64,000 nt of DNA, taken from Herbidospora daliensis (GTDB taxonomy: Bacteria > Actinomycetota > Actinomycetes > Streptosporangiales > Streptosporangiaceae). Positions 31,124 to 52,061 of this stretch are shown here, in pieces. Numbering within the stretch: the first letter of the stretch is position 1; each line of letters begins with the position of its first letter. The stretch is taken from positions 124,001-188,000 of the forward strand of contig NZ_BBXF01000007.1 of the NCBI RefSeq assembly GCF_001570585.1, read 5' to 3'. The position numbers and the translations under genes are program-made. The notes below the pieces were generated by a model, which was not told where the DNA came from, searched no databases, and saw only the letters and a list, made by a program, of their open reading frames with translations.

Positions 31124-31340
31124 ATGCCCCGAGAACGGCGCTACCCATCCGACTTGACCGACGCGCAGTGGGCGCTGATCAAGCCGCTGTTACCCGCCCC
31201 GAACACGGCCGGCCGGCCGGAGAAGCACGCTCGTCGTGATGTCGTGGACGCGGTCTTGTACGTAGTGCGTACCGGCTGCTCTGGCGGCAACCACCCTGGC
31301 AGACCGTCTAGCGGTACTTCCTCCGCTGGGAGGAAGCCAA
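31124..31340 (+). pseudogene. IS5-family transposase remnant (N-terminal fragment, frameshifted)
   Basis: MPRERRYPSDLTDAQWALIKPLLP...RPEKHARRDVVDAVLYVVRTGC is the typical N-terminus of IS5-family (IS112-type) DDE transposases. After GC-S the frame is lost: the expected WRQ-P-PWQTV-x-RYFLRWEEAKLT is found in another frame (31280-31340), also with an internal stop. The remaining two thirds are missing; the sequence passes directly into a fragment of an island gene. It marks the left edge of the mobile region. Confidence 0.8.
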
Positions 31341-31502
31341 GCTGACTAGGGGCAGCGTTGGAGCCGACCACGATCACCCGATGCCGTTCCGGCATGGGCG
31401 CGGCGCCGAGCCGGTCGAGGTGGTCGTCCAGGCGGCCTAGATCGGTATCGAGAACCCACGCTCCAGCCGGCTCCCCGTCGACCACGTCGAGGCGGGTGTA
31501 CT
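31341..31502 (-). pseudogene. 162-bp fragment of the gene intact at 49850-50665
   Basis: Reading minus, VVDGEPAGAWVLDTDLGRLDDHLDRLGAAPMPERHRVIVVGSNAAPSQL matches VVDGEPAEAWVLDTDLGRLDYRLDQLGVAPMSERHRVIAVGSNAAPSQL of the island gene at 50392-50553. The two blocks are the same length with no gap at DNA level. Both ends are cut, the left one exactly where the transposase remnant stops. It shows that an earlier, related integrative element occupied this place. Confidence 0.88.
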
Positions 31503-33563: not shown

Positions 33564-33719
33564 GTGGACATTGGGCAGAAACCACCCGCAAACGATCACC
33601 GTCAGTCGCACACAGCCGAACAATAAAAGACGCCCGCAACCCCGCTGAGCAGCAGGTTACGGGCCATCTCAAGGGTGCCCCCCGGTAGGAATCGAACCTA
33701 TGACACCAGGTTTAGGAAG
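33564..33719 (-). repeat. Element-end module 1 with tRNA-Arg(CCU)-like 3' half (att-like core 33674-33719)
   Basis: The stretch parallels the DNA downstream of the integrase at 59.6 kb: a cccgcaaacgatca block (33585-33598) as in 59605-59617, then gggtgcccccCGGTAGGAATCGAACC, ending caccaggtttaggaag. Read on the minus strand, this is the 3' half of a tRNA: anticodon loop TTCCTAA (CCU), variable/T arm with GGTTCGATTCC and acceptor GGGGGCACC. The 5' half is absent, so no functional tRNA is encoded. It differs from the copy at 59693-59737 at a few bases and by one extra C. An integrase gene is missing beside it. Confidence 0.78.
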
Positions 33720-34149: not shown

Positions 34150-34944
34150 TCAGTGGTCGACGAACCATTCGGGTGGCGGTTGCAGCGAGAAGCCGGGAGA
34201 GCCGAGCACGAATCCGGAATATCCGGTCTCGCGGTCTTGGTAGCCTCCGTCGTCGTATGTCGTATCCAAGGATGTCACGACGATCGTCGCGTCATCGACC
34301 AGTGTGCGGAATCCTCTCTCTATCTCCAGCCCAACATCAAACCGAGCGGTGTAGTTGAAATACTCCGCCACCAACAGATCTCCCGTTCGGACCAAGCCTT
34401 GGAGCCATGCGAGCGTGTCCCGCATGAGTGCTTGGAAATGTTCGACGGTGGCGGGTCTGCGGGGAAATGGTGGGCAAAGGTGGAATAGCCGCTTACCGTT
34501 CTCCGGGAGATCGGGGCGGAAGTTTCGGAAATTGCCGACGTAGATTTCTCCAACAACGGGCTCGGGAGCAGCAGCCAGGTCCTCCCGCACGATCTCTAAG
34601 GCCCGCTCCCGCGAACCGTACGTCATCGCCAGCATGTCCAAGACTGCCAATGTTACGTCTGTGCTTGCGAATGCTTTGGCGATCGCGACGTCCGCACGTT
34701 TCGGATTGAGTTCGGCGCCCGCGTACATAAGACGCAGCATGCGCGCTGCCAGCGCGCCGGACCCCAGCCCGGCGAACGGTTCGATGAGGACACTGATGCC
34801 GTGCCGCTCCACCAGCGGACGCAGATTGGTGACCAGCTCGTCGATGTCACGCGTATCCGGTGCCTGCCCCCAGCGGTCGATTGGCGTGTTCGGATCGGCG
34901 ATGAGGCGGCGGGTCCGGTAATAGTCCAGACAAAGATGCTTCAC
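34150..34944 (-). CDS. Methyltransferase-like protein of the DNA N4/N6 MTase (Rossmann) type
   Basis: 264 residues from a GTG (GAGGG ribosome site 7 bases upstream) placed 14 bases after the AEC carrier stop. Motif I appears as IEPFAGLGSGALAARM followed by AELNPKR (acidic end of strand 2), and the catalytic-like motif IV as HLCPPFPR, where amino-MTases have (D/N/S)PP(Y/F). The order motif I then IV is that of the N4/N6 DNA methylases and their relatives. The first residue of motif IV is Cys instead of Asp/Asn/Ser, so it may methylate a small molecule or be inactive. Last gene of the operon; role in it is inferred only from position. Confidence 0.6.
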   Translation of the reverse strand: MKHLCLDYYRTRRLIADPNTPIDRWGQAPDTRDIDELVTNLRPLVERHGISVLIEPFAGLGSGALAARMLRLMYAGAELNPKRADVAIAKAFASTDVTLAVLDMLAMTYGSRERALEIVREDLAAAPEPVVGEIYVGNFRNFRPDLPENGKRLFHLCPPFPRRPATVEHFQALMRDTLAWLQGLVRTGDLLVAEYFNYTARFDVGLEIERGFRTLVDDATIVVTSLDTTYDDGGYQDRETGYSGFVLGSPGFSLQPPPEWFVDH

Positions 34945-34958
34945 GACAGCCCTCGGTG

Positions 34959-35843
34959 TCAGCGAATGAACAGGTGCAGCAGTGGAAGCGTCACCAGTGC
35001 GACCGGCACCCCAACTACGCACATCGAATATGCGAGCTCCTTGTCAAGCCCGTGCCGCCCCGCGAGCAGAGCAGCGCCGATCATGGACGGCATTCCGGTT
35101 TGCAGCAGAGCGGCAGGCATGGACGAGTCGAGATCAGTCAACGGCACCACCGCAGTCAGTAGCAAGGCTGGGCCAACCACGGTGCGGACGCCAATGCCTA
35201 TCGCCAGTTCGCGGAAGCGCTTCAAGCCGCTCAGCGTCACGCGGGTGCCAAGCGCGATCATCGAGAGTGGCAGCAGCGAGGCGCTGATCGCGAGGCCGAG
35301 TGACCCTACAGGGCCGTTTAGCAGATCGACGCCAGTCAAGCTCAGCAGCGTTCCGCCGACGAGCCCCCAGAGCGCTGGCATCCGGGTCAACTGCAATACG
35401 GTCGTGCGGTCGACCACGACCTGCGAGTTCGCCACCCAGTTCGCGTAGGTGGCAAACATCAGCGTTGTACCTAGCTGATCGAAGACGATCGCGTCGGGGA
35501 GCCCATCGGCACCCATGATCGCCGTCACCGCTGAAAAACCGAAGTAGGCGGTGTTGCCGAGCGGGGCGACCAAGAGCAGCGTCCTTTGGGTCGCACCGTC
35601 GATGCGAAACCAACGGCATGCCAGGAAGATCAGCACGGCGTCGAGCGCTGTGATAGCGAAACAGAGCCCGATGATCCAAAGCGAGTGCAGGCCCCATACG
35701 ACCCGGGAAACCTGGAAGACAATGGTCAGCGGCAGCAACCAGTCAAGCACGGCACGATCCAGAAGCTGGCTGGCCGCTTCGGATGCGCCTTGCCTGCGTC
35801 CGAGCATGACGCCCACAGCGAAGAAGGTAACAATCTCTGTCAT
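34959..35843 (-). CDS. AEC-family (auxin-efflux-carrier-like) transporter
   Basis: 294 residues, ten hydrophobic helices. N-terminal half: FAVGVMLGRRQGA, AVLDWLLPLTIVFQVS; central LVAPLGNTAYFGFSAVTAIMG with the family's conserved N-T-A/G-F/Y-x-G pattern; C-terminal half LGLAISASLLPLSMIALGTRV and GMPSMIGAALLAGRHG. AEC carriers export or import organic acids and amino-acid-like compounds. It lies between the WD40-KAP and methyltransferase genes in the operon (gap 23 and 14 bases) and is the likely exporter for the pathway product. Exact substrate is inference. Confidence 0.82.
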   Translation of the reverse strand: MTEIVTFFAVGVMLGRRQGASEAASQLLDRAVLDWLLPLTIVFQVSRVVWGLHSLWIIGLCFAITALDAVLIFLACRWFRIDGATQRTLLLVAPLGNTAYFGFSAVTAIMGADGLPDAIVFDQLGTTLMFATYANWVANSQVVVDRTTVLQLTRMPALWGLVGGTLLSLTGVDLLNGPVGSLGLAISASLLPLSMIALGTRVTLSGLKRFRELAIGIGVRTVVGPALLLTAVVPLTDLDSSMPAALLQTGMPSMIGAALLAGRHGLDKELAYSMCVVGVPVALVTLPLLHLFIR

Positions 35844-35866
35844 CGGCGTATGCGATCGTCGGCCCG

Positions 35867-38800
35867 TTAGTTGGCGGGTCTAGGTGTTAGCAACGGAATA
35901 GCGAATGTTCCGTTGCGTCGCTGCTCTTCCATGCGCCAGCCGCTGTTCAGCGCGCCGATCAGCACGGTGAGATCCTCCTCCGTTGAGCTGACGCCGAGCT
36001 CTTGGAGTAGCGACTCCAGCGAGCCCACCTGACGTGACCGGACCGCTGGCGAGAGGTTCGGCCAACGCACCGTAACGATGCTCTCAAACAGGATCGTCTC
36101 CACGAACATAGAGACGTCGCGAGCCTCTGATAAGGCGACAACCCGGTCCAGCCAGTATCGGATCAGGACGCGCTTGATCTCTCGGGGGTTCGCGCCGATG
36201 AGTCCAGCGTACTGGGAGAGGTATCTCCGCTCGATACGCATCCGGCGTTCGATCTCGACGGCGCGGGCAACGAGTTCCAGGTTGCGCGGATCGTCGGTGC
36301 TGGACAGCACGGGCATTAAGAGCCCGCTTCTGGCGGCCATGGATCGTGCGGCCGTGTTGCCCGACTTGGCGATGGTCGTCACATCGACCGCTACCGGGAC
36401 GGTGCCAGAGACCCGGAACACGGAGGAGGTCGTGTTCTGTGTCGGCGGGTCGACCAAGGCGGGCGTGTAGTTCTCCCCAGTCGCGCTTGCCACTAGAGCT
36501 CCGCGTGCCCGGTGGGACAGGGGCGGCAGATCGAAAGACAGCAGGGCGATTTTCTCCATGAAGGAGGCACCGAGCTGCTTCGTGCGCGAGTGCCAATTGC
36601 CCTCTTGCGGGCCGTAACATGTCTCGATTGCGTTATAGAGCCAGTTGCGTTCGGCGAGCAGGATGAACGCGATGACCGAGCGGTTCCGGATCCGCCAGCC
36701 ATGCGGGCGAGAGAGCAGTTTGTTGCAGGCCCGCAGCACCTCCAGCACCCGCGCAGGGTCGCAGCGGTCGAGTTCGTCGATGACCACCATCACTCGGCGG
36801 GGCAACCGCCGGAGCACCGCTCGCTCATACTTGCTGATCCGGTTCATCTCCGGTTCCAGGTCGGGGAGATGAACGCTGCGAAAGGCCGGCCGGGCCCGTC
36901 CGGTGAAATACGAGGCGAGCGCGAGCAGGGCACCAGCCACGGCGATGAAGTCGGAAAGGTTGTCCGCGTCCAATAAGATCGCGCCCTTGGTTGCGCCTGC
37001 GGGCTTGATCACCAGCACCTCGAGGAAGATCCGGAGGCCGAAGTACAGCGCGCCAAAGAAGATCAGACTCGATGCGAGTGCCCGCCATAGGCCGGGACGC
37101 GTGACCCAGAACCGGCGCAACGCGTCGCGTCGGCGCAGGAACCACGGTCGAGCGTCGGAGGAACTCCGCTCGAGCACGTTGAGCAGGTCGACGAGCGGCA
37201 TCGACTGCCCGCGCTGCCACGCGTTGAAGGTTCCGGAGACCCACTGATCAATGTGGTCGTCCGCAGTCAATTGGTCCACCAGCATCTGTGCTGTCGAGGT
37301 CTTGCCAGCGCCCCACTCACCGCCGATGTGTACCAGGAAGCCGCGTTCCTCGACCTCGGAGCTCTCCAGCTGCCGTTCGAGCTCGGTGGCGGTCCGGCTG
37401 CACAGGAACACCAGCTCGTCGACAAGGCTGCTGCGGCCGATGGTGTCGGTCGACACGGGTGCGTCGACTAGGCCGATCGGTGGGTCCCACAGGCTGATGC
37501 TCTCCCGGCCTGCGGACGTGCTGCTGGTCAACAGGTCGAAGACCCAGACCCCACCGGAACCGCACGAGACGCGGTTGCCCGCGACCGAGAGTCCGGCTGT
37601 GGAGACCTGAACCGAGTGCTGGTGGACCAGACGACCGCTCTCCGGATCACGGCAGTCGATATTGCCGTCAGCGCCAGAGCTGAGCACATAGGAGTCGGTC
37701 AACGCGAGCGACTGTACGGGGCCTTCGTGGTGCCCGATCTTATCGAGCTCGGTCGACCCGTCGCGAAGAATCGCCAGCAGTCCGGAAGAGAAGCCCACCA
37801 CGACTCCGACCTTTGGGATCTCCAGCAGCGAAGTGATCTCGTCGTGGTCTTGGAATGCGGTGATGACGCGAGTCTCCAGGTCTCCGTTAGGCGTTCGGGT
37901 GACCTCGAAGCCCTCGCCCGATGCTGTGCCGAGCACTAGGGATCCGTCTGCCCGCCAGGCGACCGCCGAGACCAGCCGATCACGAAGGCGAATGACGACA
38001 TTGGTGTCCGAGGTCAAATCGGCGATGCCAACCTCGCCGCGGTCGGTGCCGTACGCCACACGTCCCGCCTTGCGGTCGAGATCAGCCGACCAGATATTGC
38101 CAGTGACGCCGAGAGAGCGTTCGGTGATGGGCTGCAGGTCGAGGCCGACGACATACAGCACACCCTTTTGCGCTACCGCGACCGCGACTTCGTCGTTCCA
38201 CCAGGAGACATTCCGAATCCAGCCACCAGCCAACTGAGAATGGGCGAGCCGCTCGTTGGTCCGGGTGCTCCATAGCGCGACCGTGCCGTCGCCTGCAGCG
38301 GAGAGCAGACGCTCACCGTCTGGGTGCCAGGATGTTGTCCACACGCCGCGCGTTAGACCGCCCAGGACAGCCTTCGACGACAGATCCGAAGCCGACAAGC
38401 GGGACACCGTGCCGTCCGAACTGCCGGTAACGAGGCAGTGTAACTCTGCCGTGTAGTCGATGGTCCAAACGATGTCGCGGTGGGTCGCGCGCTCCGTGAC
38501 CAGCTGGAAGCCTTCTTCGTTGCATAAGTACACCGCGACCCGGCCGTCGTCGAGACCGATCGCCAGCTGGTCGGTGCCAGTCCAGACGGCACATCGCGCT
38601 GGCGTTGAGCCGAGGATAACGGTGGCGATGGCCTCACCTGTGGTGGAGATGAGGCACTGTGTTGCGGAGGTGTCCTCGACCATGCAGAACGTCAGATATT
38701 CATTCTCAGGGCCGCCGAGCGCGAAACACGAGGTGAACTGGGCGCCACTTGGACCGGCGGGCACCACCGCAACTGAGCTACCGTCGCCGATATCGACTTG

Positions 38801-39304
38801 CCAAACCGCACCAGTGTCGTCGATTAAGTAAAGTTTCCCGGCTCGATCGTCGACTGCGGCCGCCATCGGTCGGCCTTGGCTTATGGCTCGCTGCCATTCG
38901 ACGTCACCCGATTCGCCGTTCCAGTAGCAGACAGACCCGTCTGTCAGGACGGAGACGCCGGTAGTGCTCGAAACACGCCGGACGATGATCGCTTGCGTGT
39001 CATGTCGTAGCACGGTGCGCTGAGCTCCGGTCACCAAGTCCCAGAGACGCGTTGTTCCGTCGGCGCTGCAAGATGCCGCCAGGGCAGGAGACAAGACCGT
39101 GACATCCGCGACGGTCATGCGATGGCCATTGAGGCGGGTCATGACGCCGAAGTCCGACAGCCGCCGCCGCACCAACTGGCCATGTGCGGAGTTGATGATA
39201 TACGAGTCGTCGTCGGTCGCGATGCCAGCGCAGATCGCCGCACCTGGGTGGATCAGGTGAGTCCAGCCGCCGTCGTGCCGTATGGCGAAATGCCGGTTAG
39301 TCAT
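35867..39304 (-). CDS. WD40 beta-propeller fused to a KAP-family P-loop NTPase with membrane helices
   Basis: 1145 residues from ATG; the ATG overlaps the stop of the upstream oxidase gene (ATGACTAA), so translation is coupled. Residues ~1-630: at least ten WD-like units, for example SCSADGTTRLWDL, VTGSSDGTVSRL, LSAAGDGTVALWS, SSGADGNIDCRD. Residues ~640-1145: KAP NTPase with Walker A GGEWGAGKTS (~660), two membrane helices (SLIFFGALYFGLRIFLEVLV; FIAVAGALLALASYF) in the KAP-typical place before Walker B VMVVIDELDRCDP (~838), and GASFMEKIALLSFDLP. KAP proteins are membrane NTPases; phage T7 exclusion protein PifA is a relative. Role in a biosynthetic operon is unexplained. Confidence 0.88.
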   Translation of the reverse strand: MTNRHFAIRHDGGWTHLIHPGAAICAGIATDDDSYIINSAHGQLVRRRLSDFGVMTRLNGHRMTVADVTVLSPALAASCSADGTTRLWDLVTGAQRTVLRHDTQAIIVRRVSSTTGVSVLTDGSVCYWNGESGDVEWQRAISQGRPMAAAVDDRAGKLYLIDDTGAVWQVDIGDGSSVAVVPAGPSGAQFTSCFALGGPENEYLTFCMVEDTSATQCLISTTGEAIATVILGSTPARCAVWTGTDQLAIGLDDGRVAVYLCNEEGFQLVTERATHRDIVWTIDYTAELHCLVTGSSDGTVSRLSASDLSSKAVLGGLTRGVWTTSWHPDGERLLSAAGDGTVALWSTRTNERLAHSQLAGGWIRNVSWWNDEVAVAVAQKGVLYVVGLDLQPITERSLGVTGNIWSADLDRKAGRVAYGTDRGEVGIADLTSDTNVVIRLRDRLVSAVAWRADGSLVLGTASGEGFEVTRTPNGDLETRVITAFQDHDEITSLLEIPKVGVVVGFSSGLLAILRDGSTELDKIGHHEGPVQSLALTDSYVLSSGADGNIDCRDPESGRLVHQHSVQVSTAGLSVAGNRVSCGSGGVWVFDLLTSSTSAGRESISLWDPPIGLVDAPVSTDTIGRSSLVDELVFLCSRTATELERQLESSEVEERGFLVHIGGEWGAGKTSTAQMLVDQLTADDHIDQWVSGTFNAWQRGQSMPLVDLLNVLERSSSDARPWFLRRRDALRRFWVTRPGLWRALASSLIFFGALYFGLRIFLEVLVIKPAGATKGAILLDADNLSDFIAVAGALLALASYFTGRARPAFRSVHLPDLEPEMNRISKYERAVLRRLPRRVMVVIDELDRCDPARVLEVLRACNKLLSRPHGWRIRNRSVIAFILLAERNWLYNAIETCYGPQEGNWHSRTKQLGASFMEKIALLSFDLPPLSHRARGALVASATGENYTPALVDPPTQNTTSSVFRVSGTVPVAVDVTTIAKSGNTAARSMAARSGLLMPVLSSTDDPRNLELVARAVEIERRMRIERRYLSQYAGLIGANPREIKRVLIRYWLDRVVALSEARDVSMFVETILFESIVTVRWPNLSPAVRSRQVGSLESLLQELGVSSTEEDLTVLIGALNSGWRMEEQRRNGTFAIPLLTPRPAN

Positions 39305-40421
39305 CGGTAAGCAAATCGACCGCTCGCCGGGCCAGTGCTGGTGCAAGGGTCATGCCCTCGCCTTCCTGCCCGTTAACCGAGACGACCCCACGGTAGTTAC
39401 CCTGCCCGCGGACGATGAGCTGCTTGCGGTGCAACTCGAAGGGCCGGAAGCAGATGTCGATTGATCGGAGAGTGCGCCCCATCAGCCCGGGTATGTGGCG
39501 CTCGGCCTCCGCGCGGATCCGCTGCACGACGTAATCGAGATTGTCGTGCGACTGGCCGACCACCTCGCGCGAGCTGCCAATCCGCCAAAGGGCGTTGCGC
39601 TGTTCGAATGAGAACGCCACACCCAAGTCGATGTCGCTCGACTCCTTTCGGGCGAGGTAGGAGCTGTCATGCATGACGTAGTCCATGTTGCCCAGCGAGT
39701 CGTAGGTCAGGATGATTCCGCGCCGGGGGTTGATCGAGCGGTCCACCGGCCAGTCAACCTCGTTGTGATACGCGCCGGTGGCGAGGAGCACTGACCGGGC
39801 AGACATTGTCCGGTCGGAGTCCTCGCCGTGAGCCGTCAGCACGTATCTCCCGCCCTTAAACTCTATCGCCTCGATCTTGACAGAAGGCATCCAGTGGAGG
39901 AGGGCGCCGTGCTTGGTGTGCAGATAATCGAGCATCAACTGCGCGAAGCGGCGAGGTTCGATGCGCCCCTCCGCCGAGCAGCGGAATGCGCCAGGGATGT
40001 CGCCGGACATGTAAGGCGCAAGCTTCCGCAGCCGTGTACCAGAAATGTCCTCCACCTCCACGCCGGCCGCTGTCAGCTGATTCGCAACTCCCTCGCACAC
40101 AGCCCGATCGGTCTCATTCCAATAAGTGACTATCCCGCCACACCAATTGATCACCTGGGCGAAGGGGGCGTCACTCACCGTTCCGATCGACTTGTAGAGC
40201 TCGATCGCCTCGAGCGCCATGCGGATCGACTCGTCGGTGGCTTTGTCCTGCAGTCCAATGGAGCCTCCGCTGGTTAAGGTTGTCCCTGCCCCACATGTCA
40301 CCCGGCTCTCGATCAGAAGGGTGCGAAGACGCTTCACCCGGACCGAGTGCCAGGCAGCGAGCATGCCGGTGACGCCAGCACCAACGATGGCGACGTCGAA
40401 TATGTCGTACGAAGGCTCCAC
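39297..40421 (-). CDS. FAD-dependent oxidoreductase of the DAO family
   Basis: 374 residues from GTG with GAGGAG 9 bases upstream. N-terminal Rossmann motif VAIVGAGVTGMLAAWHS, then ESRVTCGAGTTLTSGGSIGLQ, RSVLLATGAYHN and the C-terminal VVSVNGQEGEGMTLAPALARRAVDLL, which reads as the FAD-contacting Gly-rich end of D-amino-acid oxidase/sarcosine-oxidase/ThiO-like enzymes. It would oxidise a C-N bond of an amino acid or amine using O2. Within the diaminopropionate operon it probably acts on a pathway amino acid. It overlaps the KAP gene by 8 bases. Confidence 0.88.
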   Translation of the reverse strand: MEPSYDIFDVAIVGAGVTGMLAAWHSVRVKRLRTLLIESRVTCGAGTTLTSGGSIGLQDKATDESIRMALEAIELYKSIGTVSDAPFAQVINWCGGIVTYWNETDRAVCEGVANQLTAAGVEVEDISGTRLRKLAPYMSGDIPGAFRCSAEGRIEPRRFAQLMLDYLHTKHGALLHWMPSVKIEAIEFKGGRYVLTAHGEDSDRTMSARSVLLATGAYHNEVDWPVDRSINPRRGIILTYDSLGNMDYVMHDSSYLARKESSDIDLGVAFSFEQRNALWRIGSSREVVGQSHDNLDYVVQRIRAEAERHIPGLMGRTLRSIDICFRPFELHRKQLIVRGQGNYRGVVSVNGQEGEGMTLAPALARRAVDLLTDD

Positions 40422-40474
40422 CGCAAAATGCTCCTCTACTCGGTGGCTAGGACTCCCTTAATCTGACGGACCGG

Positions 40475-41401
40475 TCAAGTCCCGGACTTGGCCATTTCCC
40501 CGAGGTGCACCAGAGCAGTGAGCGTCTCATTGATTGGTGTCGGGATGCCGTACTTCGCACCGAGTTCGACGATGGTGCCGTTCAGCGCGTCGACCTCGGT
40601 GAGTCGGCCCTGTTCCAGGTCGACGAAGGTCGACGCCCGATGGTTGGGAAGGCTCTCCCAGTTTGCGAAGGCCCGGTCGAGCTGGCCGTCCGGCAGGTCG
40701 ACGCCAGCGGCGCGACCTACCGCGACGATCTCGTCGATGAGTTTGTTCAGGGTGTGGTGCCACACAGCCGACTCGCGGAGCACGCGGAACGTGGCGCTAG
40801 TAAGGCCGCTGACAGCGTTCTGGCTGCACGCGATGACCATTTTGTCCCAGATGACGCGCTTGATATTCATCGAGAGTTCGAAAACGAGCGGCGAGCCCTG
40901 CAGCCTGCCAACGAACGACTTGATGCGGTCAGCGTGCTCGGCGTCCACGCCGTCAAGGCCGAGAACGGTGCGCATGTTGCTGCCAGCCTCGACGCTGTGG
41001 GGACCCGTCCGCTTAGCACCCAGGTATGAGACGCCGCCCACCACCCGATGGACGCCGAGACGCTCGCCGTACTCAGTCAAGGGCCGCACACCGGTCTGGA
41101 GTGTGACCACCGTCGCGTTCGGGGACAGCCACTCGGCCAGCACGTCGGCCAGAGCTTTCGTGTCCGGGTATTTCACTAGGCAGACGGCAATGTCCGCCCG
41201 GGCGAGCAGGCCAGGGTCAGCCGACGCGGTGATGGCGGCGTGCTGAGTGGAACCATCGTGGGTGAGCGTGATGCCGCCCGCCGATTCGATTGCATTTGCC
41301 TGCGACACGCCCCTCACCAGCAACTCTGGATTGACGAATGTCGACATAAGGGCTCCATACGCGAGGCCCAGTGACCCTCCACCGCAGAGGACTACGTTCA
41401 T
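40475..41401 (-). CDS. PanE/ApbA-family (ketopantoate-reductase-like) NAD(P)H oxidoreductase
   Basis: 308 residues. NADP-binding N-terminus VVLCGGGSLGLAYGALMS, KYPDTKALADVLAEWLSPNATVVTLQTGV (pattern K...T..A), the catalytic-lysine region IKRVIWDKMVIACSQNAVSGLT, and the C-terminal helix end PNHRASTFVDLEQGRLTEVDALNGTIVELGAKYGIPTPIN, nearly diagnostic for 2-dehydropantoate 2-reductase-type enzymes. The family reduces 2-oxo acids such as ketopantoate. In this operon, likely reduces an oxo acid made by the FAD oxidase, or another pathway intermediate; exact substrate is inference. Confidence 0.88.
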   Translation of the reverse strand: MNVVLCGGGSLGLAYGALMSTFVNPELLVRGVSQANAIESAGGITLTHDGSTQHAAITASADPGLLARADIAVCLVKYPDTKALADVLAEWLSPNATVVTLQTGVRPLTEYGERLGVHRVVGGVSYLGAKRTGPHSVEAGSNMRTVLGLDGVDAEHADRIKSFVGRLQGSPLVFELSMNIKRVIWDKMVIACSQNAVSGLTSATFRVLRESAVWHHTLNKLIDEIVAVGRAAGVDLPDGQLDRAFANWESLPNHRASTFVDLEQGRLTEVDALNGTIVELGAKYGIPTPINETLTALVHLGEMAKSGT

Positions 41402-41448
41402 AGCGATACCTCTCCCGAGTGCTAAATAGCGCCACTACAAATCTCAGT

Positions 41449-42465
41449 CTATAGCCTCAGTGCATTGGCCAGCAGTTGTTGAGTGACGCGACGACGCATC
41501 TCGACCTGGCGCCAGATCAGCGACCTTTCACCATCCAGCAAGTCATCCGTCACCTCCAACCCTCGGTCGGCCGGAAGGCAATGCAGGTAACCTGCCTTCG
41601 GGGTCGCTCGATGGAAGAGTTCCTCACTTGCCATCCAGTGGTGATACACGCCTGCAATCTCCTGATGGCCGCGTCCTTTTTGTTCCCAAGACATCCACGA
41701 CTTCATATACAAGATGTCAGCATTGTCAAGCGCCTGTCCGAGGTCGCTTGTTTCGGTCAGGCTTCCGCCGGCCTTGCCCGCCCAGTCTCGGGCCGCCCGG
41801 GTTAGGCTGGCCGGGAGCGAGAATTCCGATGGAGCGGCGATCACAAGGTGCGCACCGGCGGCGGAGGCGGCCATCACGAAGCTCGCTGGCACCGCGATGG
41901 GCTTCGGCTCGGGCGAATGCGCCCAAGCCATGACGACTTTCCGGCCGCGTGCGGTGCCGCAGTGTTCCACGACCGTGGCGACATCGGCCATCGCCTGAAT
42001 GGGATGCCCCGAATCAGTTTCCAGGTTGATAACCGGAACGGTCACCGAGCGCAGCATTCTCTCAAATACTGCGTCACCCGCCCCTACTGAAACTGACGAA
42101 CTGGGGCCGTACGCTCGGACGGCGAGGCAGTCGGCGTTTAGGTTGATAACCCGAACGATATCCTCCATCGCTTCCTGTTTGTACGGTTCGCCCGGACCGC
42201 TGATGATCGGCGAATAGATGCGGTTCGGCTCCAGATCGATATGCGACGCGCCTAGCACCGCGCATGCTTTGGCAACCCCTAGGCGTGTCCGCAGCGACCG
42301 GTTGAGGAAAAGCGTTGCCACCAGGGACCCAGGCGATTGAGGAAGTGTATCGTTGCCCGCGACGATGTCCTCGACCATCTTTATGGTTCGTTCGGGGCCG
42401 AAATCGCGAATCGAAACGACGCTGCCATTCCTCGGCCGATCAGTGGGATTAGACAGTAGTTCCAT
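41449..42465 (-). CDS. Carbamoyltransferase of the OTCase/AOTCase family
   Basis: 338 residues from ATG with GGAG 6 bases upstream (a GTG 15 bases earlier overlaps that site). Carbamoyl-phosphate loop as NRSLRTR (55-61), close to the SLRTR form found in N-acetylornithine carbamoyltransferases; HPIQAMADVATVVEH and HCLP (295-298) are the other conserved contacts. The family moves a carbamoyl group to an amine. VioL/ZmaT-type members carbamoylate the side-chain amine of 2,3-diaminopropionate in viomycin and zwittermicin assembly. With SbnA/SbnB-like genes upstream, beta-ureidoalanine formation is the simplest inference. Confidence 0.88.
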   Translation of the reverse strand: MELLSNPTDRPRNGSVVSIRDFGPERTIKMVEDIVAGNDTLPQSPGSLVATLFLNRSLRTRLGVAKACAVLGASHIDLEPNRIYSPIISGPGEPYKQEAMEDIVRVINLNADCLAVRAYGPSSSVSVGAGDAVFERMLRSVTVPVINLETDSGHPIQAMADVATVVEHCGTARGRKVVMAWAHSPEPKPIAVPASFVMAASAAGAHLVIAAPSEFSLPASLTRAARDWAGKAGGSLTETSDLGQALDNADILYMKSWMSWEQKGRGHQEIAGVYHHWMASEELFHRATPKAGYLHCLPADRGLEVTDDLLDGERSLIWRQVEMRRRVTQQLLANALRL

Positions 42466-42489
42466 GAACGCTCCGTTCACCAGACCTCG

Positions 42490-43638
42490 TCAGCTGCCTA
42501 ATAAACGATCTATTACTGCTGCGACCTCCACGAGGCCGCCTCCGTCGACGATCAGTCTCTGTGTTTTCGTGTGGTGCGGCACCACCCCGAGCCCGCGGCC
42601 GGTAACCAGCAGAACCGTCAGCTCGTTCCGGTCGACGAGGCCGCATTCGAGCGCCGCCATCAGGCCGGCCTGGCAAGCGGCCGAGGCTTCCTCGGCGAGG
42701 ATCCCGGCGCTGGCCAACGAACGCCTGCCCGATGCGATCGCCGCCTCCGGTACGGCAAGAAAAGCGCCCCCACTCGCTTTCACGTCGGCCAATGCCTGCT
42801 CACCGAGGGACGGCACTTCGACGGCGATGCCCGCTGCGCTGGTTCCCTTCGCGTTCAGCTCGGCGGCACCCGGTCGGCGTCCCTCCCACGCGCACACCAG
42901 CGGTTGGCAGGCCGCCGCCTGAACGCCGATCAACCTGGGGGAACGCTCCACGACGCCACAGGCGATTAGTTCCCGGAACCCCTTGGCTATGCCGGCGAGC
43001 GTGGTGCCATCCCCTACTGGGATTACGACGACGTCGGGCGCCCGGCGGCCGAGCTGCTCCCAGATTTCGAATGCGACGGTCTTCTTAGCCTCTACAGTGA
43101 GCGGATTGATGCCCGTGTTCCGGTCGACGAGGCCAAACTCGCGGCTCGCGGCGAGCGACAACTCCACCGCAGCGTCATAGCCTCGCGCGACTTCGAACAC
43201 TGCCGCCCCGGTCCCTGCCATCAGGGCGACCTTACGGAGGTCGCAGCCGAAAGGGACGAAGATGATGGCGAGCATCCCCGCAGCGGCGGCGCCGATGCAG
43301 GTGGACAGCGCGGCATTGCCGGTGGAGGCGGTCGTGATCGCCTTTGCTCCGTGCCGCAGGCCGTTCTCGATCACGAGGGCAGTCGCACGGTCCTTGTTGG
43401 ACGAGCTGGGGCCGATCGTTTCATCTTTGAGGTGCAACCGGGGCATCGCCATCCCCCGCCGCAGCGGTCCGACCGCGAGCAAGGGAGTGCCGCCGACCGG
43501 GAGAGGGTAAGCGATCCGTCCCGGTTCCAGCGGCAGCAGCCGGGCGTAACGCCACATGGACATTTTGGTGGGCAACTCTGAGGGAAAAAGCTCACTGCCG
43601 TAGTCGTACGTGATCGGCTCGCCCGGAGACCTATTCAT
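42490..43638 (-). CDS. Threonine-synthase-like PLP (fold II) enzyme
   Basis: 382 residues. The ATG overlaps the SbnB-like stop by 8 bases (ATGAATAG). PLP-lysine K82 in SSSNKDRA, phosphate/substrate loop TTASTGNAALS, PVGDGTTLAGI as the PLP phosphate-binding glycine loop, and the C-terminal LVTGRGLGVV. This is the threonine-synthase/threonine-dehydratase group, which makes beta- or gamma-replacement or elimination reactions. Its length is like short TS forms, without the N-terminal extension. In this operon it could make a dehydro amino acid or swap a beta/gamma group on a diaminopropionate- or homoserine-derived substrate. Confidence 0.85.
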   Translation of the reverse strand: MNRSPGEPITYDYGSELFPSELPTKMSMWRYARLLPLEPGRIAYPLPVGGTPLLAVGPLRRGMAMPRLHLKDETIGPSSSNKDRATALVIENGLRHGAKAITTASTGNAALSTCIGAAAAGMLAIIFVPFGCDLRKVALMAGTGAAVFEVARGYDAAVELSLAASREFGLVDRNTGINPLTVEAKKTVAFEIWEQLGRRAPDVVVIPVGDGTTLAGIAKGFRELIACGVVERSPRLIGVQAAACQPLVCAWEGRRPGAAELNAKGTSAAGIAVEVPSLGEQALADVKASGGAFLAVPEAAIASGRRSLASAGILAEEASAACQAGLMAALECGLVDRNELTVLLVTGRGLGVVPHHTKTQRLIVDGGGLVEVAAVIDRLLGS

Positions 43639-44632
43639 GCGCGCCTGACAGGAAGTCGGCAACGATCGTTCCCCGACCAGTCGATGCGGCGCGCTTCATG
43701 ACCAGCTGGGCAACTGCTATGTCCAGTACCCCGAGCCCGAAAGGGGAAAAGATCAGCGGGCGATTCGGTCGGAACGAGATGCGGTTCGGGTCAGCGAGCA
43801 GTTCACCGAGCGAACGGTCGATGAATCGGCGGCCTCCGGTCTGCTCTTCGGCTAGTTGTAGCGACGTCCGCTCACGGCACACGTGATCGCTGTCGTCCAC
43901 GATGTTGTTCGAAGAGGTGATGACGGACGGAGACAGGTCACGCAGCGAGATATGAAGAACGATGGAGTCAGAGGGGGTTGCCAGCGATTCGAGGTACGGT
44001 TTTGCGGCGGTGGTGGCGATCGACAGCAGGGAGGATTCCCGCTGAACAGCGGTGAGCGAGTCGCTGACGGCCACGTCCAGATCAGGAAACCGCTCGGCCG
44101 CAGTGCGGACGAACTGTGCGGCCTTGTCCGGCCGGAGGTCGAAGACGCGCACCTGCTTCACCGCCACCGGGGTATGCCGGAGGTAATGCAATACCTCAGC
44201 GTTGACGCGTCCGCAGCCAATCAAGCCGACGGTTTCCTGCCGCCGATCGGTCCGCAGCGTCGCTGCAGCTATTGCCGCGCTCGCCGCCGTACGCTGCGCG
44301 CTGATCGTGGACCCCTCTAGGACCGCAACTGGCACCCCGGTGGTGTACGAATTCAGAACGATGAGACCCGATGCGCGCGCTAGTCCCCGCTCGACGTTCT
44401 TGGGGAACGACGCGATCCACTTCATCCCGGCGACGGATTCGTCCGACTGTAGAAATGCCGGTAGCGCGATCATCCGGTTGTCGCCCCACACGTCAGGTCG
44501 CAGGAAGACTGAATGTGGGACGCTAGTCCGTTCCCGGAAGTGTGCTATGTACGTCGCCCGCACCGTACGTAATACTTCTTCCTCGTCGCCGTTGAGCAGT
44601 TCTTCGACGTCGTGACCTCCGATGATCAGCAC
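43631..44632 (-). CDS. sbnB: SbnB-like 2,3-diaminopropionate synthase subunit (ornithine-cyclodeaminase/mu-crystallin family)
   Basis: 333 residues from a GTG (AAAGGG ribosome site upstream) that overlaps the SbnA-like stop by 7 bases; SbnB is 336 residues. Signatures: AGMKWIASFPKN with the catalytic Lys, GSTISAQRTAASAAIAA, NAD-binding GLIGCGRVNAEVL, VRVFDLRPDKA, LHISLRDLSP, and the C-terminal FSPFGLGVLDIAVAQLV. In the staphyloferrin-B pathway SbnB oxidises and cleaves N-(1-amino-1-carboxyl-2-ethyl)-glutamate to L-2,3-diaminopropionate and 2-oxoglutarate with NAD. The adjoining SbnA-like gene makes that substrate. Strong pair assignment. Confidence 0.88.
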   Translation of the reverse strand: MLIIGGHDVEELLNGDEEEVLRTVRATYIAHFRERTSVPHSVFLRPDVWGDNRMIALPAFLQSDESVAGMKWIASFPKNVERGLARASGLIVLNSYTTGVPVAVLEGSTISAQRTAASAAIAAATLRTDRRQETVGLIGCGRVNAEVLHYLRHTPVAVKQVRVFDLRPDKAAQFVRTAAERFPDLDVAVSDSLTAVQRESSLLSIATTAAKPYLESLATPSDSIVLHISLRDLSPSVITSSNNIVDDSDHVCRERTSLQLAEEQTGGRRFIDRSLGELLADPNRISFRPNRPLIFSPFGLGVLDIAVAQLVMKRAASTGRGTIVADFLSGAHE

Positions 44633-45711
44633 GTTCCGGCCCTTTCGAGAGAGCTCCAGGAGATTTCCTCCTCGCGCAGACCTCCGAAGTGCTGGGCAAC
44701 CCACGACCCGTCATAAATCGTGTCGACGTATCGCTCCCCCCTATCGGGCAGAATGATCACGCAGGTGGCTCCATGCCGGATGCGGTGTGCGTACTTCGCG
44801 ACGCCTGCGGCCACTGCGCCTGAGGAGCCACCGGCCAAATAAGCCTCCCGGCCCAGCAGCATTCGGCAACCGATAAGGCTTTCCCGGTCCGTTACGTGCA
44901 CCACCGCGTCGGCAAGGTCTGGACGATACAGCTCGGGGACGATGGTCGCGCCGTGACCGGGGATCAGTCGACGACAAGCGGGGTTACCGAAAATAGCGCT
45001 CCCCGCCGCGTCCACTGCGACCAACTCGGTGGTCAGTCCAGATTCGCTCAGATACTCGAAAAATCCTCTGAGTGTCCCGCACGTGCTGGTCGCACAGAAA
45101 ACATAATCGACAGTGCCTAAAACATTGATGATCTCGCGTATGGTGTTCACGTGTGCTGCGGCGTTGAGCGTGTTCGAATATTGATCAGGCCAGTATCCAT
45201 CGGATAACTCGTCGAGGAGTTCCTGGACCCGGCGCAGACGCGACGGAAGATATTCCTCCGTTTCCGAGTCGAGGTTGGTGACGATGTCCACTTGGGCGCC
45301 GTAGGTTCGCAGAACGGAAAGGATTGGGCGGGGCGTTTTTGGATCCACGACACAAATGAGATCCACCCCGTAATATTTACACACCTGTGCTAATCCGACG
45401 CCCATATTCCCCGAGGTGGATTCGACTATGGTGGTCCGGCCTGGGACGATTCGACCGGCGCGGATCTCCTGACTCACGATGGCCTTCGCCGGCCGATCTT
45501 TGATACTGCCGCCTGGATTAAGTGCTTCTAATTTAGCGAAGACTCGGAAATTGCTTGGGTGGTATAGTCGATTGAACTCGACCAGTGGAGTGCCGCCAAC
45601 GGCGGCTAGAATGCCAGACGGTGCCTCCAGCGGTTCGATTGGGGTTAAATGGGACTCGCTGCGTCGTTCCGTCTCGACAAGCTTTATATCTGCGCCATTC
45701 CTGCTACCCAT
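44626..45711 (-). CDS. sbnA: SbnA-like PLP enzyme (cysteine-synthase family), 2,3-diaminopropionate pathway
   Basis: 361 residues from ATG; an in-frame TTG seven codons earlier is less likely. PLP-lysine K71 in NPGGSIKDRPA, STSGNMGVGLAQVCKYYG, CATSTCGTLRGFFEYL and LAGGSSGAVAAGVAKY: the cysteine-synthase fold with the SbnA-type N-terminus (GGTPLVEFNRLY). SbnA joins O-phospho-L-serine and L-glutamate to the ACEGA intermediate used by SbnB. It is first in the nine-gene operon, overlaps SbnB by 7 bases and is preceded by a 1.2-kb region without genes. SbnA is usually ~326 residues; the extra length is at the N-terminus. Confidence 0.87.
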   Translation of the reverse strand: MGSRNGADIKLVETERRSESHLTPIEPLEAPSGILAAVGGTPLVEFNRLYHPSNFRVFAKLEALNPGGSIKDRPAKAIVSQEIRAGRIVPGRTTIVESTSGNMGVGLAQVCKYYGVDLICVVDPKTPRPILSVLRTYGAQVDIVTNLDSETEEYLPSRLRRVQELLDELSDGYWPDQYSNTLNAAAHVNTIREIINVLGTVDYVFCATSTCGTLRGFFEYLSESGLTTELVAVDAAGSAIFGNPACRRLIPGHGATIVPELYRPDLADAVVHVTDRESLIGCRMLLGREAYLAGGSSGAVAAGVAKYAHRIRHGATCVIILPDRGERYVDTIYDGSWVAQHFGGLREEEISWSSLERAGTC

Positions 45712-46336
45712 GATCACCGCTTTCGGCAACAAATGTACGCTTAAATGTAGAGATCATTCTCCATTTTGAAGACGGTCGGGTCTCTCAAGGTCGAGCACTC
45801 AAGTGCGTTCTCAGTTTCGCACCATAGTTCGTATTTCCACCGGGCACAATAGATCGCCGGAGGTGGCGCGTCGTCGTAGATCGACACCACCTGTAGTCGA
45901 TCTTTCGGGCGGCTCGCCAAGGTTGGGGTGTGCGAGAATCGCCGCTGCTCATGGCGTCATCCTGAACCTAAACCGAGTGTTGAATGGGTTCAGGTTTCCT
46001 GGGGCGCGTGATCATGTTCGATTGGCGAAGATGTGATATCCGGATTGTGGTAGTTTCGGCTAGAAATGTGTTTTGTGAGAGATGAGTCCGATTGTAGCTT
46101 CTGGGCTATTCGCTTCGAGTGTCGCCGCGGCCCTGTTGCCCAGGCGGTTGCCGGGCTTCCTTAAATCTTGCTGTGGTCGTCCCAATATCCCAGATAGTCC
46201 TCTTGGGCGGGCCACGGTGTGGGAGTGCTGCTCCGGATCTACGCCACTTGTGTCACCGGACAGGACGTCGCGGCTCGTCTGTTCATCGCTGCAGCCCTAT
46301 CCGTAGATTAGATCCGTGGGTAGGTAAGGATATCTG
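45712..46336. promoter_or_regulatory. Promoter region of the diaminopropionate operon; no gene supported
   Basis: This AT-rich stretch holds the start region of the minus-strand operon. Reading minus from 45740, tctacatttaagcgtacatt contains a TACATT-like -10 candidate about 25-35 bases before the SbnA-like ATG. Short open frames to the right (45803-46343) lack ribosome sites and domains. No regulator gene is encoded next to the operon, so its control may come from elsewhere. Confidence 0.4.
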
Positions 46337-49849: not shown

Positions 49850-50665
49850 TCACATGCTCGGCAAGGGAGTCCCGCCGAACTCGGGCTGCGGACGTGCCCA
49901 GCCTTGCAGCCGGAACGTCTCGTACACGGCCTCTCGGACCGTCACGTCCTGGGCCTGCTCGATGAACTCAGAAACCGTGCTCCCGCACAGGTTCCGTAGT
50001 TCAGCGGACAGCGCGATCACCCGAGCGATCAGCGCGCTCTGTTCGCCAAGCCTCAGCGCCTGGCCGGTCTCGTCGCTGAGGTAGCCGTGTTTGCCGACGT
50101 ACACGAAGCAGGCCGGGAGCGGCACGCCCGAGGTCAGCATCACGGGGAAGTTGTCGGAGGGGAGTAGCCGCCGGTCGTAGTTGGGTTCGGTGGCGTCGAG
50201 GATCTCGAACTGTGGCTCATCGAGCCACAGCACGAACAGGCGTGAAGTCTCACCCGGTACGGCGATGGGGGCTGCGGGGATGTAGCCGTTCCGGTTGATG
50301 TGGGCCGACACGCCGGGGGCGATGCCGGTGACGTCGGCCAAGGTCAAGGGGATGACCGGCCGGACGTCGTGGTTGACGAACTTGCGGTGGAGCTGACTGG
50401 GGGCCGCGTTGGATCCGACCGCGATCACACGGTGTCGCTCGGACATCGGCGCGACGCCGAGCTGGTCGAGGCGGTAGTCCAGGCGGCCGAGGTCGGTGTC
50501 GAGAACCCATGCTTCGGCCGGCTCTCCGTCGACCACGTTGAGGCGGGCGTACTTGCCGTCGGCGAACAGGCCGGAGGTCGGGGGGATGCGACCGGGATAG
50601 GTGAGTGGGGCAGTCATCGGGTCGTCGGCGAACAGGTCGTCGACGTTGAGCTCGGGGGCGCTCAC
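49850..50665 (-). CDS. Conserved AICE protein of unknown function
   Basis: 271 residues from a GTG that overlaps the GntR stop by 4 bases. No membrane segment. Conserved-looking pieces: TYPGRIPPTSGLFADGKYARL, WVLDTDLGRLDYRLDQLGVAP, RHRVIAVGSNAAPSQLHRKF, VPLTLADVTGIAPGVSAHINRNGYIPAAP and FVLWLDEPQFEILDATEPNY. The GSNAAPSQL loop recalls a small nucleotide- or sugar-phosphate-binding turn, and the whole protein has the feel of a gamma-glutamylcyclotransferase-like fold, but this is not firm. A 162-bp homologous fragment at 31341-31502 shows it belongs to the element backbone. Co-transcribed with the GntR repressor. Confidence 0.65.
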   Translation of the reverse strand: MSAPELNVDDLFADDPMTAPLTYPGRIPPTSGLFADGKYARLNVVDGEPAEAWVLDTDLGRLDYRLDQLGVAPMSERHRVIAVGSNAAPSQLHRKFVNHDVRPVIPLTLADVTGIAPGVSAHINRNGYIPAAPIAVPGETSRLFVLWLDEPQFEILDATEPNYDRRLLPSDNFPVMLTSGVPLPACFVYVGKHGYLSDETGQALRLGEQSALIARVIALSAELRNLCGSTVSEFIEQAQDVTVREAVYETFRLQGWARPQPEFGGTPLPSM

Positions 50666-51420
50666 GTAGCGTCCAGCTCGTACACCATGACGTGTCTGTC
50701 ACCGGGGAGCACGGAGACCATGACGCGGACGGGTCGGCCGTCAGCGTCGTAGCCGGTCCGGGTGTGCTCCGCGATGGGTGTTCCGGCGGGCAGGCCAAGG
50801 CGCGTGGTCTCGTCCTTGGTCGGCATCCTGACCTGGATCTCGTCGAGGGTCTTCACCTGCGGGTGTCCGAGGGAGGACAGGATGCCGCCGGGCACGGCGA
50901 TGTCGCCCGGCTTCATCAGGACGGTTCCTTGGGCGATGTCCATCGGGAAGTAGCTGTCCGAGAGCTGGAACGGCGTGTCGTCGACGTAGCGGACACGCCG
51001 ACGCACCACGACGAGGTCGTCTTCGTCGACGCCGAGTCGCTGGGCGACCTTCGGTGACGGCGTGTCGATCCCGACGGTGACCTCTTGTCGGGGTTCGTGA
51101 CCCTGGGTGCGGACGTCGTTGTTCCAGGCGTCGCCGTCCGCGTTGTGGCGGGCCGTGCTCTCGAAGCTGGACAGTTGCCAGCGCAAGCGGGTCTGTGAAC
51201 GGACGACACGCCCGCGGCCTCGCCCACTGGAAAGCAGCCCCTCATTCGTGAGCTGCTGCAAGGCCTGGCGTACGGTCTGGCGGCTGACTTGGTGGTTCGC
51301 CGCCAGTTCTTGTTCTGCGGGGACGTTGTCCCCGGGCTTCAACTCGCCGCGCACGATGGCGGCTCTGAGATCGTCTGCGACGCGCTCGTACAGCGCGCGT
51401 GTGTCCGCTCCCGCAGGCAC
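50662..51420 (-). CDS. GntR/HutC-type repressor (KorSA-like)
   Basis: 252 residues from GTG. N-terminal winged helix: YERVADDLRAAIVRGELKPGDNVPAEQELAANHQVSRQTVRQALQQLTNEGLLSSGRGRGRVV; C-terminal ~150 residues are a UTRA ligand domain (LVVVRRRVRYVDDTPFQLSDSYFPMDIAQGT; AEHTRTGYDADGRPVRVMVSV). In pSAM2-type elements, the GntR protein KorSA represses transfer/replication genes. It sits at the divergent point between the backbone gene and the transfer genes, and TACGTA palindromes lie upstream, so it very likely autoregulates and controls transfer. Confidence 0.9.
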   Translation of the reverse strand: MPAGADTRALYERVADDLRAAIVRGELKPGDNVPAEQELAANHQVSRQTVRQALQQLTNEGLLSSGRGRGRVVRSQTRLRWQLSSFESTARHNADGDAWNNDVRTQGHEPRQEVTVGIDTPSPKVAQRLGVDEDDLVVVRRRVRYVDDTPFQLSDSYFPMDIAQGTVLMKPGDIAVPGGILSSLGHPQVKTLDEIQVRMPTKDETTRLGLPAGTPIAEHTRTGYDADGRPVRVMVSVLPGDRHVMVYELDAT

Positions 51421-51887: not shown

Positions 51888-52052
51888 ATGCGGTTCGCCT
51901 GTCCCGACTGCGGACACCGCCATGGTTCGGCCCTCGGGTGCCGGTGCGGCACGCCGTACCCGCAGATCCAGATGTGTGTCGTTCACGCCATGCGCTGTGT
52001 GGCCGGCTGTCGCTCGTGCCGCGCTCTCGTCCGCTCCCAGTCCGGCCGATAG
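51888..52052 (+). CDS. Very small Cys-rich zinc-binding protein
   Basis: 54 residues beginning one base after the stop of the preceding gene. Cys pairs at CPDC, CRC, MRCVAGCRSC (nine Cys in total) suggest two zinc sites. Its reading frame has the same codon bias as the neighbours, supporting expression. No named family. Part of the string of short genes ahead of the DUF2637 gene. Confidence 0.5.
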   Translation: MRFACPDCGHRHGSALGCRCGTPYPQIQMCVVHAMRCVAGCRSCRALVRSQSGR

Positions 52053-52061
52053 GAGGCCTGC

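Follow-up and report, generated by a model that had tools for sequence, protein, structure and literature searches.

A putative operon for a 2,3-diaminopropionate-derived compound, with two unusual downstream enzymes, on an integrative element of Herbidospora daliensis

Introduction

Several described systems make or consume 2,3-diaminopropionate (Dap). The Dap module of the staphyloferrin B, zwittermicin and viomycin pathways brings the two Dap-synthesis enzymes together with a siderophore synthetase or a nonribosomal peptide synthetase (NRPS), and the viomycin, capreomycin and zwittermicin clusters hold Dap transcarbamylases (DPTCases), which published work places in the unknotted branch of the ornithine transcarbamylase (OTC) family (PMC4581275, PMC6022934). 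In the reductive urate pathway, as two reports describe it, the Dap set free by YgeY is split by YgeX to give pyruvate, while the knotted transcarbamylase YgeW acts on 2,3-diureidopropionate, one study assigning the reaction to the 2-ureido group, with albizziin as the product, and the other to the 3-ureido group (PMC12507026, PMC12990295). As for mobile DNA, the stacking of actinomycete integrative-conjugative elements (AICEs) at tRNA-Arg has been described in Streptomyces (PMC9513070).

Here we describe a row of nine genes in a 64,000-nucleotide stretch of the Herbidospora daliensis genome (contig NZ_BBXF01000007.1, positions 124,001 to 188,000; hereafter the window, in whose coordinates all positions are given). 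The row, at 34150-45732 on the minus strand, combines genes of the SbnA and SbnB types with a threonine-synthase-like (ThrS-like) pyridoxal phosphate (PLP) enzyme and a transcarbamylase that bears marks of the knotted branch, and it lies within an AICE. What is new here is the unusual pair of enzymes that follows the Dap-making genes in this putative operon for a Dap-derived compound. We regard it as an evenly balanced proposition that this is an NRPS-free, AICE-borne operon whose product is a Dap-derived, likely free non-protein acid acting as an antimetabolite.

Dap synthesis and the layout of the row

The first gene encodes an SbnA-type PLP synthase (44626-45732, minus strand, likely start 45711) that scores 384 bits against TIGR03945 (cut-off 350) and matches SbnA itself in the PDB (5d84, E 7e-76). 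Adjacent to it lies the gene of an SbnB-type dehydrogenase (43631-44704, minus strand, likely start 44632), with 374 bits against TIGR03944 (cut-off 327) and a match to PDB 4m54 (E 4e-30), an entry labelled as a putative ornithine cyclodeaminase, which we take to be SbnB. Because both proteins exceed the cut-offs of these curated equivalog models, the prediction that they make Dap, SbnA by the precursor step and SbnB by the releasing step, is well supported, as the original prediction, made from the DNA sequence before this analysis, had proposed. We know of no housekeeping role for either enzyme. A Streptomyces pair of the SbnA/SbnB type is reported to use donors other than O-phosphoserine and glutamate, so the substrates may differ (PMC4668381). 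Both enzymes are present and adjacent, as in the staphyloferrin B, zwittermicin and viomycin modules; unlike those modules, the pair is found here with the ThrS-like enzyme and the transcarbamylase rather than with a siderophore synthetase or an NRPS, and no NRPS, adenylation or ATP-grasp gene occurs in the nine-gene row, again in line with the earlier account.

All nine open reading frames (ORFs) are intact and the row is operon-like. With the likelier internal starts, three junctions overlap by 7-8 bases (SbnA/SbnB, 44626/44632; SbnB/ThrS-like, 43631/43638; and 39297/39304, further along the row) and four others have gaps of 9-53 bases, while at the last junction the two genes overlap by 64 bases or, if an inner GTG is the start, lie 14 bases apart. 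The one-strand, tightly spaced arrangement that had been claimed thus stands. Our scan of the operon region found no sigma-70-like promoter, and terminator-like sites occurred at chance level; since neither scan gave anything above chance, co-transcription of the nine genes is suggested by their spacing.

A PLP family tied to Dap genes

The third gene (42490-43662, minus strand, likely start 43638) encodes the ThrS-like PLP enzyme, which passes the Pfam model PALP. It is the best-supported further link to Dap, and it is one that the original prediction missed. An alignment of three members, used to scan 84,980 species genomes, yielded 67 loci of the family. All three members of that alignment adjoin SbnB; its two patterns come from the ThrS protein only, yet may favour the SbnB-linked subgroup. 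Counting a locus as linked when an SbnA or SbnB match above 60 bits lay within 4 kb of the ThrS-like gene, we found SbnB in 28 of the 67 loci, SbnA in 21 and either in 30. The other 37 comprise 22 with neither gene and at least 3 kb on both sides, and 15 with flanks too short to call. Among the 31 actinobacterial loci, 28 are linked, two are not (L095, L136) and one is uncallable (L143); the 30 linked loci are accordingly from Actinomycetota in all cases except L124 and L149 (Chloroflexota), which show weak matches of 26-34% and fall outside the linked clade. At L117 and L128, the two loci checked, both partner proteins score above the cut-offs of the SbnA and SbnB models. In a tree of the family, for which L153 and L155 were too short, the window protein forms a long branch (1.08) within a 30-row clade (SH-aLRT 99), of which 27 rows, itself included, are linked, two are not and one is uncalled.

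The triad of SbnA, SbnB and ThrS-like genes was seen in Kutzneria, Rhodococcus, Kibdelosporangium, Amycolatopsis and Actinoplanes, in the order SbnB-SbnA-ThrS at L091, L098, L109, L111, L113 and L116 and SbnB-ThrS-SbnA at L128. Beside the triad, the two annotated loci (L111, L117) carry genes of the carrier-protein, adenylation, TauD or thioesterase types, those at L111 reading as carrier/hexapeptide, adenylation-carrier and TauD genes. To our knowledge no product has been assigned to these actinobacterial triads.

A second context emerges from the 37 loci without the link, of which 13 have a YgeY-family hydrolase gene just upstream of the ThrS-like gene, 7 have a D-hydantoinase gene and 9 have one for another amidohydrolase; none of the 30 linked loci does. 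In the 13 loci the ThrS-like match follows the end of the YgeY-family match by 111-285 bp. All three YgeY-like examples scored pass NF009555 (372-395 bits, cut-off 321) and both hydantoinase examples pass TIGR02033, while the other amidohydrolase, of PRK09061 type and acylase-like in name only, falls below the cut-off in both examples; at L105 a hydantoinase/carbamoylase-family amidase takes the place of YgeY. The Dap ammonia-lyase model TIGR01747 gave no match at E 1e-20 in any of nine genomes with a YgeY row, with E. coli as a positive control. Beside YgeY-like genes in Thermomicrobiota, Chloroflexota and Bacillota, the ThrS-like family holds the position of YgeX. Since SbnA and SbnB make Dap and the hydantoinase-YgeY route leads to Dap, this is the metabolite that unites the two contexts, which together support the view that the ThrS-like enzyme acts on Dap or a close derivative. 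At L101, L126, L138 and L144 (Thermomicrobiota, Bacillota), genes for ECF-like ATPases, a D-hydantoinase, a further amidohydrolase, a YgeY-like hydrolase and the ThrS-like enzyme form a conserved row, in genomes that gave no YgeX match; it is a candidate variant of hydantoin/ureido-Dap degradation.

The end of the reductive urate pathway (YgeW, YgeX, YgeY, HyuA) resembles the window in that a transcarbamylase of the knotted branch and a PLP enzyme apparently work around Dap, and differs from it in that the window has Dap-making genes, lacks a hydantoinase, YgeY or carbamate kinase gene, and encodes a PLP enzyme that is not a YgeX orthologue. Orthology with YgeX was rejected on a match of 25% over 67 amino acids and on the lack of any YgeX model among the matches listed (25 of 35).

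A housekeeping threonine synthase was likewise rejected. Of the six threonine-synthase models listed, the window protein passes none (123 of the 167 bits set for ThrC), and its host has two other ThrC genes at 311 and 270 bits; in all 14 genomes searched, that of the window included, the best ThrC match is another gene, at 259.8-316.1 bits. The position of ThrC Arg160, presumably a phosphate-binding residue, is Thr in 28 of 30 linked rows (the window among them) and in 19 of the 22 rows with neither Dap gene, a class that excludes the 15 uncalled loci; at the position of ThrC Asn188, Asp is found in 29/30 and 22/22 rows, respectively.

These observations bear on a different account, in which the ThrS-like protein serves, as an ammonia-lyase or racemase of Dap, to protect the host or to keep its Dap pool in balance, the transcarbamylase and the PanE-type protein described below likewise serve self-protection, and the product is Dap or a simple derivative. 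The YgeX position of the family, in hydantoinase/YgeY rows of genomes lacking a YgeX match, fits it well. Dap toxicity is tied to pantothenate supply, a connection on which our literature search found nothing relevant. A plain degrading enzyme would nevertheless be unexpected where the family is conserved beside SbnB and SbnA in many actinobacterial genera, with NRPS-type genes in the two annotated loci, and the subgroups of the family differ at ThrC positions 88 and 319. We judge this account to be an unlikely explanation.

A transcarbamylase with knotted-branch marks

The fourth gene (41449-42480, minus strand; Pfam OTCace) encodes the carbamoyltransferase that the original prediction had named, and the carbamoyl-phosphate motifs SxRT, Arg112, HPxQ and HCLP are intact. 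Read against PMC4581275, the protein also has a proline-rich loop, a long 120's loop and Lys252 at the start of the 240's loop, marks which point to the knotted branch of N-acyl-ornithine enzymes and YgeW. A single-sequence structure model reached a mean pLDDT of 36, too poor to show a trefoil knot, and was left unused, so that 'knotted' refers here to marks in the sequence. The best PDB match is 3m5c (E 1e-30) and the best curated model is that of N-acetylornithine carbamoyltransferase, at 182 of 288 bits and thus below cut-off.

In a 16-row tree, eight unknotted rows split at 99/99 from the window enzyme and seven knotted rows. The best tree groups it with the N-acetylornithine and N-succinylornithine transcarbamylases (AOTC and SOTC), unsupported (24/0); placing it as sister to YgeW (p 0.28), as sister to the G308 type (p 0.21; L and G numbers are our labels for loci and genomes) or on the stem outside the seven knotted rows (p 0.48) was not rejected. 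A clade with three NRPS-associated unknotted enzymes (L051, L160, L162) was rejected (approximately unbiased test, p 0.0014). Because tree and identity alone are weak, it is the loop marks that carry the knotted assignment.

The original prediction had drawn an analogy with VioL and ZmaT, neither of which is among the rows of the tree; the knotted marks and the rejected NRPS-associated clade speak against an enzyme of that type, and we discarded it. The DPTCases of the viomycin, capreomycin and zwittermicin clusters would share with the window enzyme the expected transfer of carbamoyl to Dap and the carbamoyl-phosphate motifs, but belong, according to the sources cited above, to the unknotted branch. 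Streptomyces provides further unknotted examples: genes annotated as ornithine carbamoyltransferase directly follow NRPS genes at L051 and in the plasmid records behind L041, L042 and L160. The first three have SbnA/SbnB in the same cluster (beside the enzyme at L051), whereas the L160 stretch does not; the L160 enzyme is 75% like that of L051 over 88% of its length. The enzymes of all four rows are likely Dap transcarbamylases. L162 showed no SbnA/SbnB in the stretch read.

A role in arginine synthesis was considered and rejected: the host's own OTC sits in a separate cluster, among genes that read, by their translations, as argC, argJ, argB, argD and argH. The earlier account had also pointed to the arginine-pathway clade as a place to check; firm placement there is not shown, yet three residues of the window enzyme (Gln92, Pro185 and Glu302, numbered through a 20-residue offset) equal the published N-succinylornithine set. 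N-acetylornithine transcarbamylase was tried as well and rejected, since Glu92, Asn185, Lys302 and an 80's-loop Trp are expected where Gln, Pro, Glu and Ser are found. The enzyme resembles the N-acetyl- and N-succinylornithine transcarbamylases in its knotted marks and its best PDB match; it differs in its identity of about 30% to two plasmid-borne ones, in its position outside an arginine cluster and in the loss of Trp77, the 80's-loop Trp of AOTC and SOTC-like rows.

It follows that the operon could make Dap while its transcarbamylase uses another diamino substrate, N-acylated or opine-like (for example an SbnA-type Dap-glutamate conjugate or an N-substituted ornithine), in which case the product would not be a simple ureido-Dap. 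The knotted marks, the three N-succinylornithine residues and the unsupported AOTC/SOTC grouping are all on the side of this alternative, which is countered by the Ser at Trp77, by the sub-threshold N-acetylornithine score and by an operon that holds no arginine gene in a host equipped with an arginine-cluster OTC; we consider it rather improbable. Our preference remains carbamoyl transfer to a nitrogen of Dap, the choice of acceptor being conjectural and the transfer itself suggested by the motifs.

The host's OTC also bears, as do its two far stronger ThrC genes, on whether the row is simply an arginine/threonine salvage or housekeeping unit that moved onto the element. The family names OTC, threonine synthase and PanE invite that idea, but these duties appear to be covered elsewhere in the genome and SbnA/SbnB have, as far as we know, no such role; we think it very improbable.

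Relatives of the window enzyme are scarce. At E 1e-60 it was found in one of 250 genomes of the family (its own) and at E 1e-45 in three of 396 genomes of the phylum (its own and two enzymes at 34-35%); a pattern search of genome_contigs returned 11 matches with no relative among them, and plasmids gave three records at 30-31%. The best-scoring other matches, at 34-35%, are transcarbamylases with knotted-type loops from genomes of 1.2-1.4 Mb, two of them in tandem beside an ORF reading as carbamate kinase (L088, 2705-4764) and one at L087 (4259-5308). We also inspected 40 of the 44 other SbnB places (L044-L083, about 19 kb each or to the contig end; G873, G686, G761 and G420 were left out). 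The association of this transcarbamylase type with SbnA/SbnB in relatives, proposed as a check on the original prediction, was seen in none of these 40 neighbourhoods, which counts against that prediction, though there was no close relative in which to test it.

The remaining genes of the row

The fifth gene encodes a PanE/ketopantoate-reductase-type 2-keto-acid reductase (40475-41401, minus strand) with 164.5 bits against the broad model TIGR00745 (cut-off 141) and a PDB match to 3hwr (E 7e-33). Lys176 and Glu256 of E. coli PanE are kept and Asn98 and Asn180 are replaced, residues whose functional roles in PanE we assume. It is followed by a DAO-type flavin oxidoreductase (39297-40421, minus strand; PF01266, 129 bits) that is distantly ThiO-like (69 of the 251 bits of the ThiO model), and by a protein with a WD40 propeller and a KAP P-loop NTPase (35867-39346, minus strand, likely start 39304; PF00400 and PF07693, both over cut-off), in which probable membrane helices were seen by eye; the DAO/KAP junction is the third overlap given above. 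An AEC-type membrane carrier and putative exporter (34959-35843, minus strand) reaches 56.6 bits against PF03547 (Mem_trans; cut-off 25.7). The last gene (34150-35022, minus strand) encodes a methyltransferase-like protein with DNA-methyltransferase-like motifs and weak matches only (phrog_498, E 1e-3; PADLOC MTase_II, E 1e-4). The family names given earlier are therefore backed by curated models for SbnA, SbnB and PanE and by over-threshold Pfam models (PALP, OTCace, DAO, Mem_trans, WD40, KAP_NTPase) for the others, the methyltransferase-like protein excepted, which has no Pfam match. From these family names, oxidation by the DAO-type enzyme, 2-keto-acid reduction by the PanE type, methylation and export by the AEC carrier may be proposed.

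The mobile element

An AICE of about 26 kb, element 1, carries the operon, which lies about 0.4 kb from the element's left end. The 3'-end sequence of tRNA-Arg is present three times as a direct repeat: at 33679-33718 (98% match to the copy in the intact gene), which marks the left end of element 1; at 59693-59737 (91%), which marks its right end and the start of a tandem element 2; and inside the tRNA-Arg(CCT) gene, which is intact and lies at contig position 200.6 kb, about 12.6 kb past the window's right end. We assign the operon to element 1 because the first two repeats enclose it together with a GntR/UTRA regulator gene (50662-51420, minus strand; PF00392, PF07702), presumably KorSA-like; a DUF2637 gene (51938-53107, plus strand; PF10935), presumably Spd-like; a gene for an FtsK/TraB-like DNA translocase (53104-55218, plus strand; phrog_1358, E 1e-25; Pfam FtsK_SpoIIIE at 16.7 of 24, below cut-off); a primase-polymerase (prim-pol) replication gene (55426-57990, plus strand; PF09250, PF13148); and a tyrosine integrase (58102-59576, plus strand; PF00589, phrog_1). 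Element 1 thus has the att repeats in a tRNA gene, the integrase, the Rep and the FtsK-type translocase of an AICE, and the mobile location suggested in the original prediction is confirmed. Since the integrase reads as two overlapping ORFs in different frames, a defective element or an error in the sequence is possible. GC content is 0.57-0.64 across 33-47 kb, as against 0.65-0.76 across the first 31 kb of the window.

Element 2, of about 17 kb, extends in tandem up to the tRNA-Arg gene and includes an ORF that reads as integrase-like. Such an array of elements between tRNA-Arg repeats recalls the accretion described in Streptomyces (PMC9513070); the cargo differs, being here a nine-gene, biosynthetic-looking operon. 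Element 2 also carries (window 60950-63550; L006 7689-9005) a gene for a GHKL-ATPase protein with weak restriction-enzyme matches, adjoining an N6/N4 DNA methyltransferase gene. To the left of element 1, a short minus-strand ORF (31141-31485) resembles by eye part of a 271-amino-acid protein encoded inside it (49850-50665).

Discussion

Our data suggest the following rough proposal for the pathway. SbnA and SbnB would make Dap, and the ThrS-like PLP enzyme would use Dap itself or a compound derived from it. The transcarbamylase, of the knotted kind, may carbamoylate an amino group, giving an albizziine-like (3-ureido) acid or a 2-ureido-3-amino acid, after which the DAO- and PanE-type enzymes would probably replace an amine by a keto and a hydroxy group. 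The methyltransferase-like protein may methylate, the AEC carrier may export the product, and the WD40-KAP protein could perhaps be regulatory or protective. One end product consistent with these steps would be a ureido amino or hydroxy acid, and our best reading of the product, though unproved, is an amino or hydroxy acid that derives from Dap, is free and probably carries a ureido group. Albizziine is a glutamine analogue.

Several observations weigh against this proposal, among them the three N-succinylornithine residues noted above. The best-known knotted transcarbamylases act on N-acyl-ornithine; the end branch of the window enzyme is long (1.91); and its highest percentage identity in the tree set is to the host's unknotted OTC (31%, and 36% in a separate comparison), although score separates the two, at 107 bits as against 181 bits for the nearest knotted-type enzyme, that of G308 (35%). 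On the side of the PLP enzyme, we found no characterised member of the family, the scores of two members narrowly exceed the thrC cut-off of 167.1 bits (170 and 169.6), and the gene occurs in only one of the 40 neighbourhoods of the SbnB-first search. The YgeY-like proteins lie under the TIGR03526 cut-off (243-260 of 321.5), and some of the nine genomes lacking a YgeX match are metagenome bins whose completeness is unstated. For the DAO, PanE and methyltransferase steps, the proposed order and chemistry come from family names, and the gene set was seen once, with no relative of the whole operon in the searches made.

That last point raises the possibility of a patchwork, in which a short Dap module and unrelated AICE cargo (WD40-KAP, AEC, methyltransferase) share a strand by chance. 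The searches lend it some weight: at the thresholds used, the DAO and methyltransferase proteins were found in one genome of 148 each, their own, with no relatives in the 147 others, and plasmids gave no match to DAO, KAP or methyltransferase; KAP was searched on plasmids and in the fetched loci, and AEC and PanE in the fetched loci and in the family and PDB libraries. At E 1e-5 the carbamoyltransferase, PanE, DAO, KAP, AEC and methyltransferase proteins had no match in the 40 SbnB and 67 ThrS-like loci, apart from the unknotted carbamoyltransferase of L051. A patchwork would also suit the absence of a promoter or terminator signal and the description of AICE cargo as often mixed and decaying (PMC9513070). 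Against it stand nine intact ORFs with overlapping or close junctions throughout, and we find it, too, unlikely. For the ThrS-like and SbnB proteins, viral_contigs yielded no relative, and a plasmid search with the ThrS-like protein returned 72 records, all below 60% identity, the 20 listed being all haloarchaeal.

In titles and the beginnings of abstracts, literature searches turned up no description of the gene set, of the association of ThrS-like genes with SbnA/SbnB, or of a knotted transcarbamylase in a Dap cluster; together with the genome searches made, this agrees with the earlier account, which knew of no described cluster with this set. In its boldest form, which we hold to be doubtful but worth stating, our proposal is of a mobile, NRPS-free route to a free ureido-Dap antimetabolite that combines a Dap carbamoyltransferase from the knotted YgeW branch with a new Dap-specific PLP family. 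Two counterparts of urate-degradation enzymes would here be used in the building direction, and the PLP family would replace YgeX in Thermomicrobiota, Chloroflexota and Bacillota and join SbnA/SbnB clusters throughout Actinomycetota. If this is true, it would reveal a second, structurally different line of enzymes for Dap carbamoylation; it would provide the first functional lead for a PLP family whose members in Dap clusters and hydantoinase/YgeY rows currently pass for 'threonine synthase'; and it would represent a small-molecule pathway that moves as a unit on an AICE.

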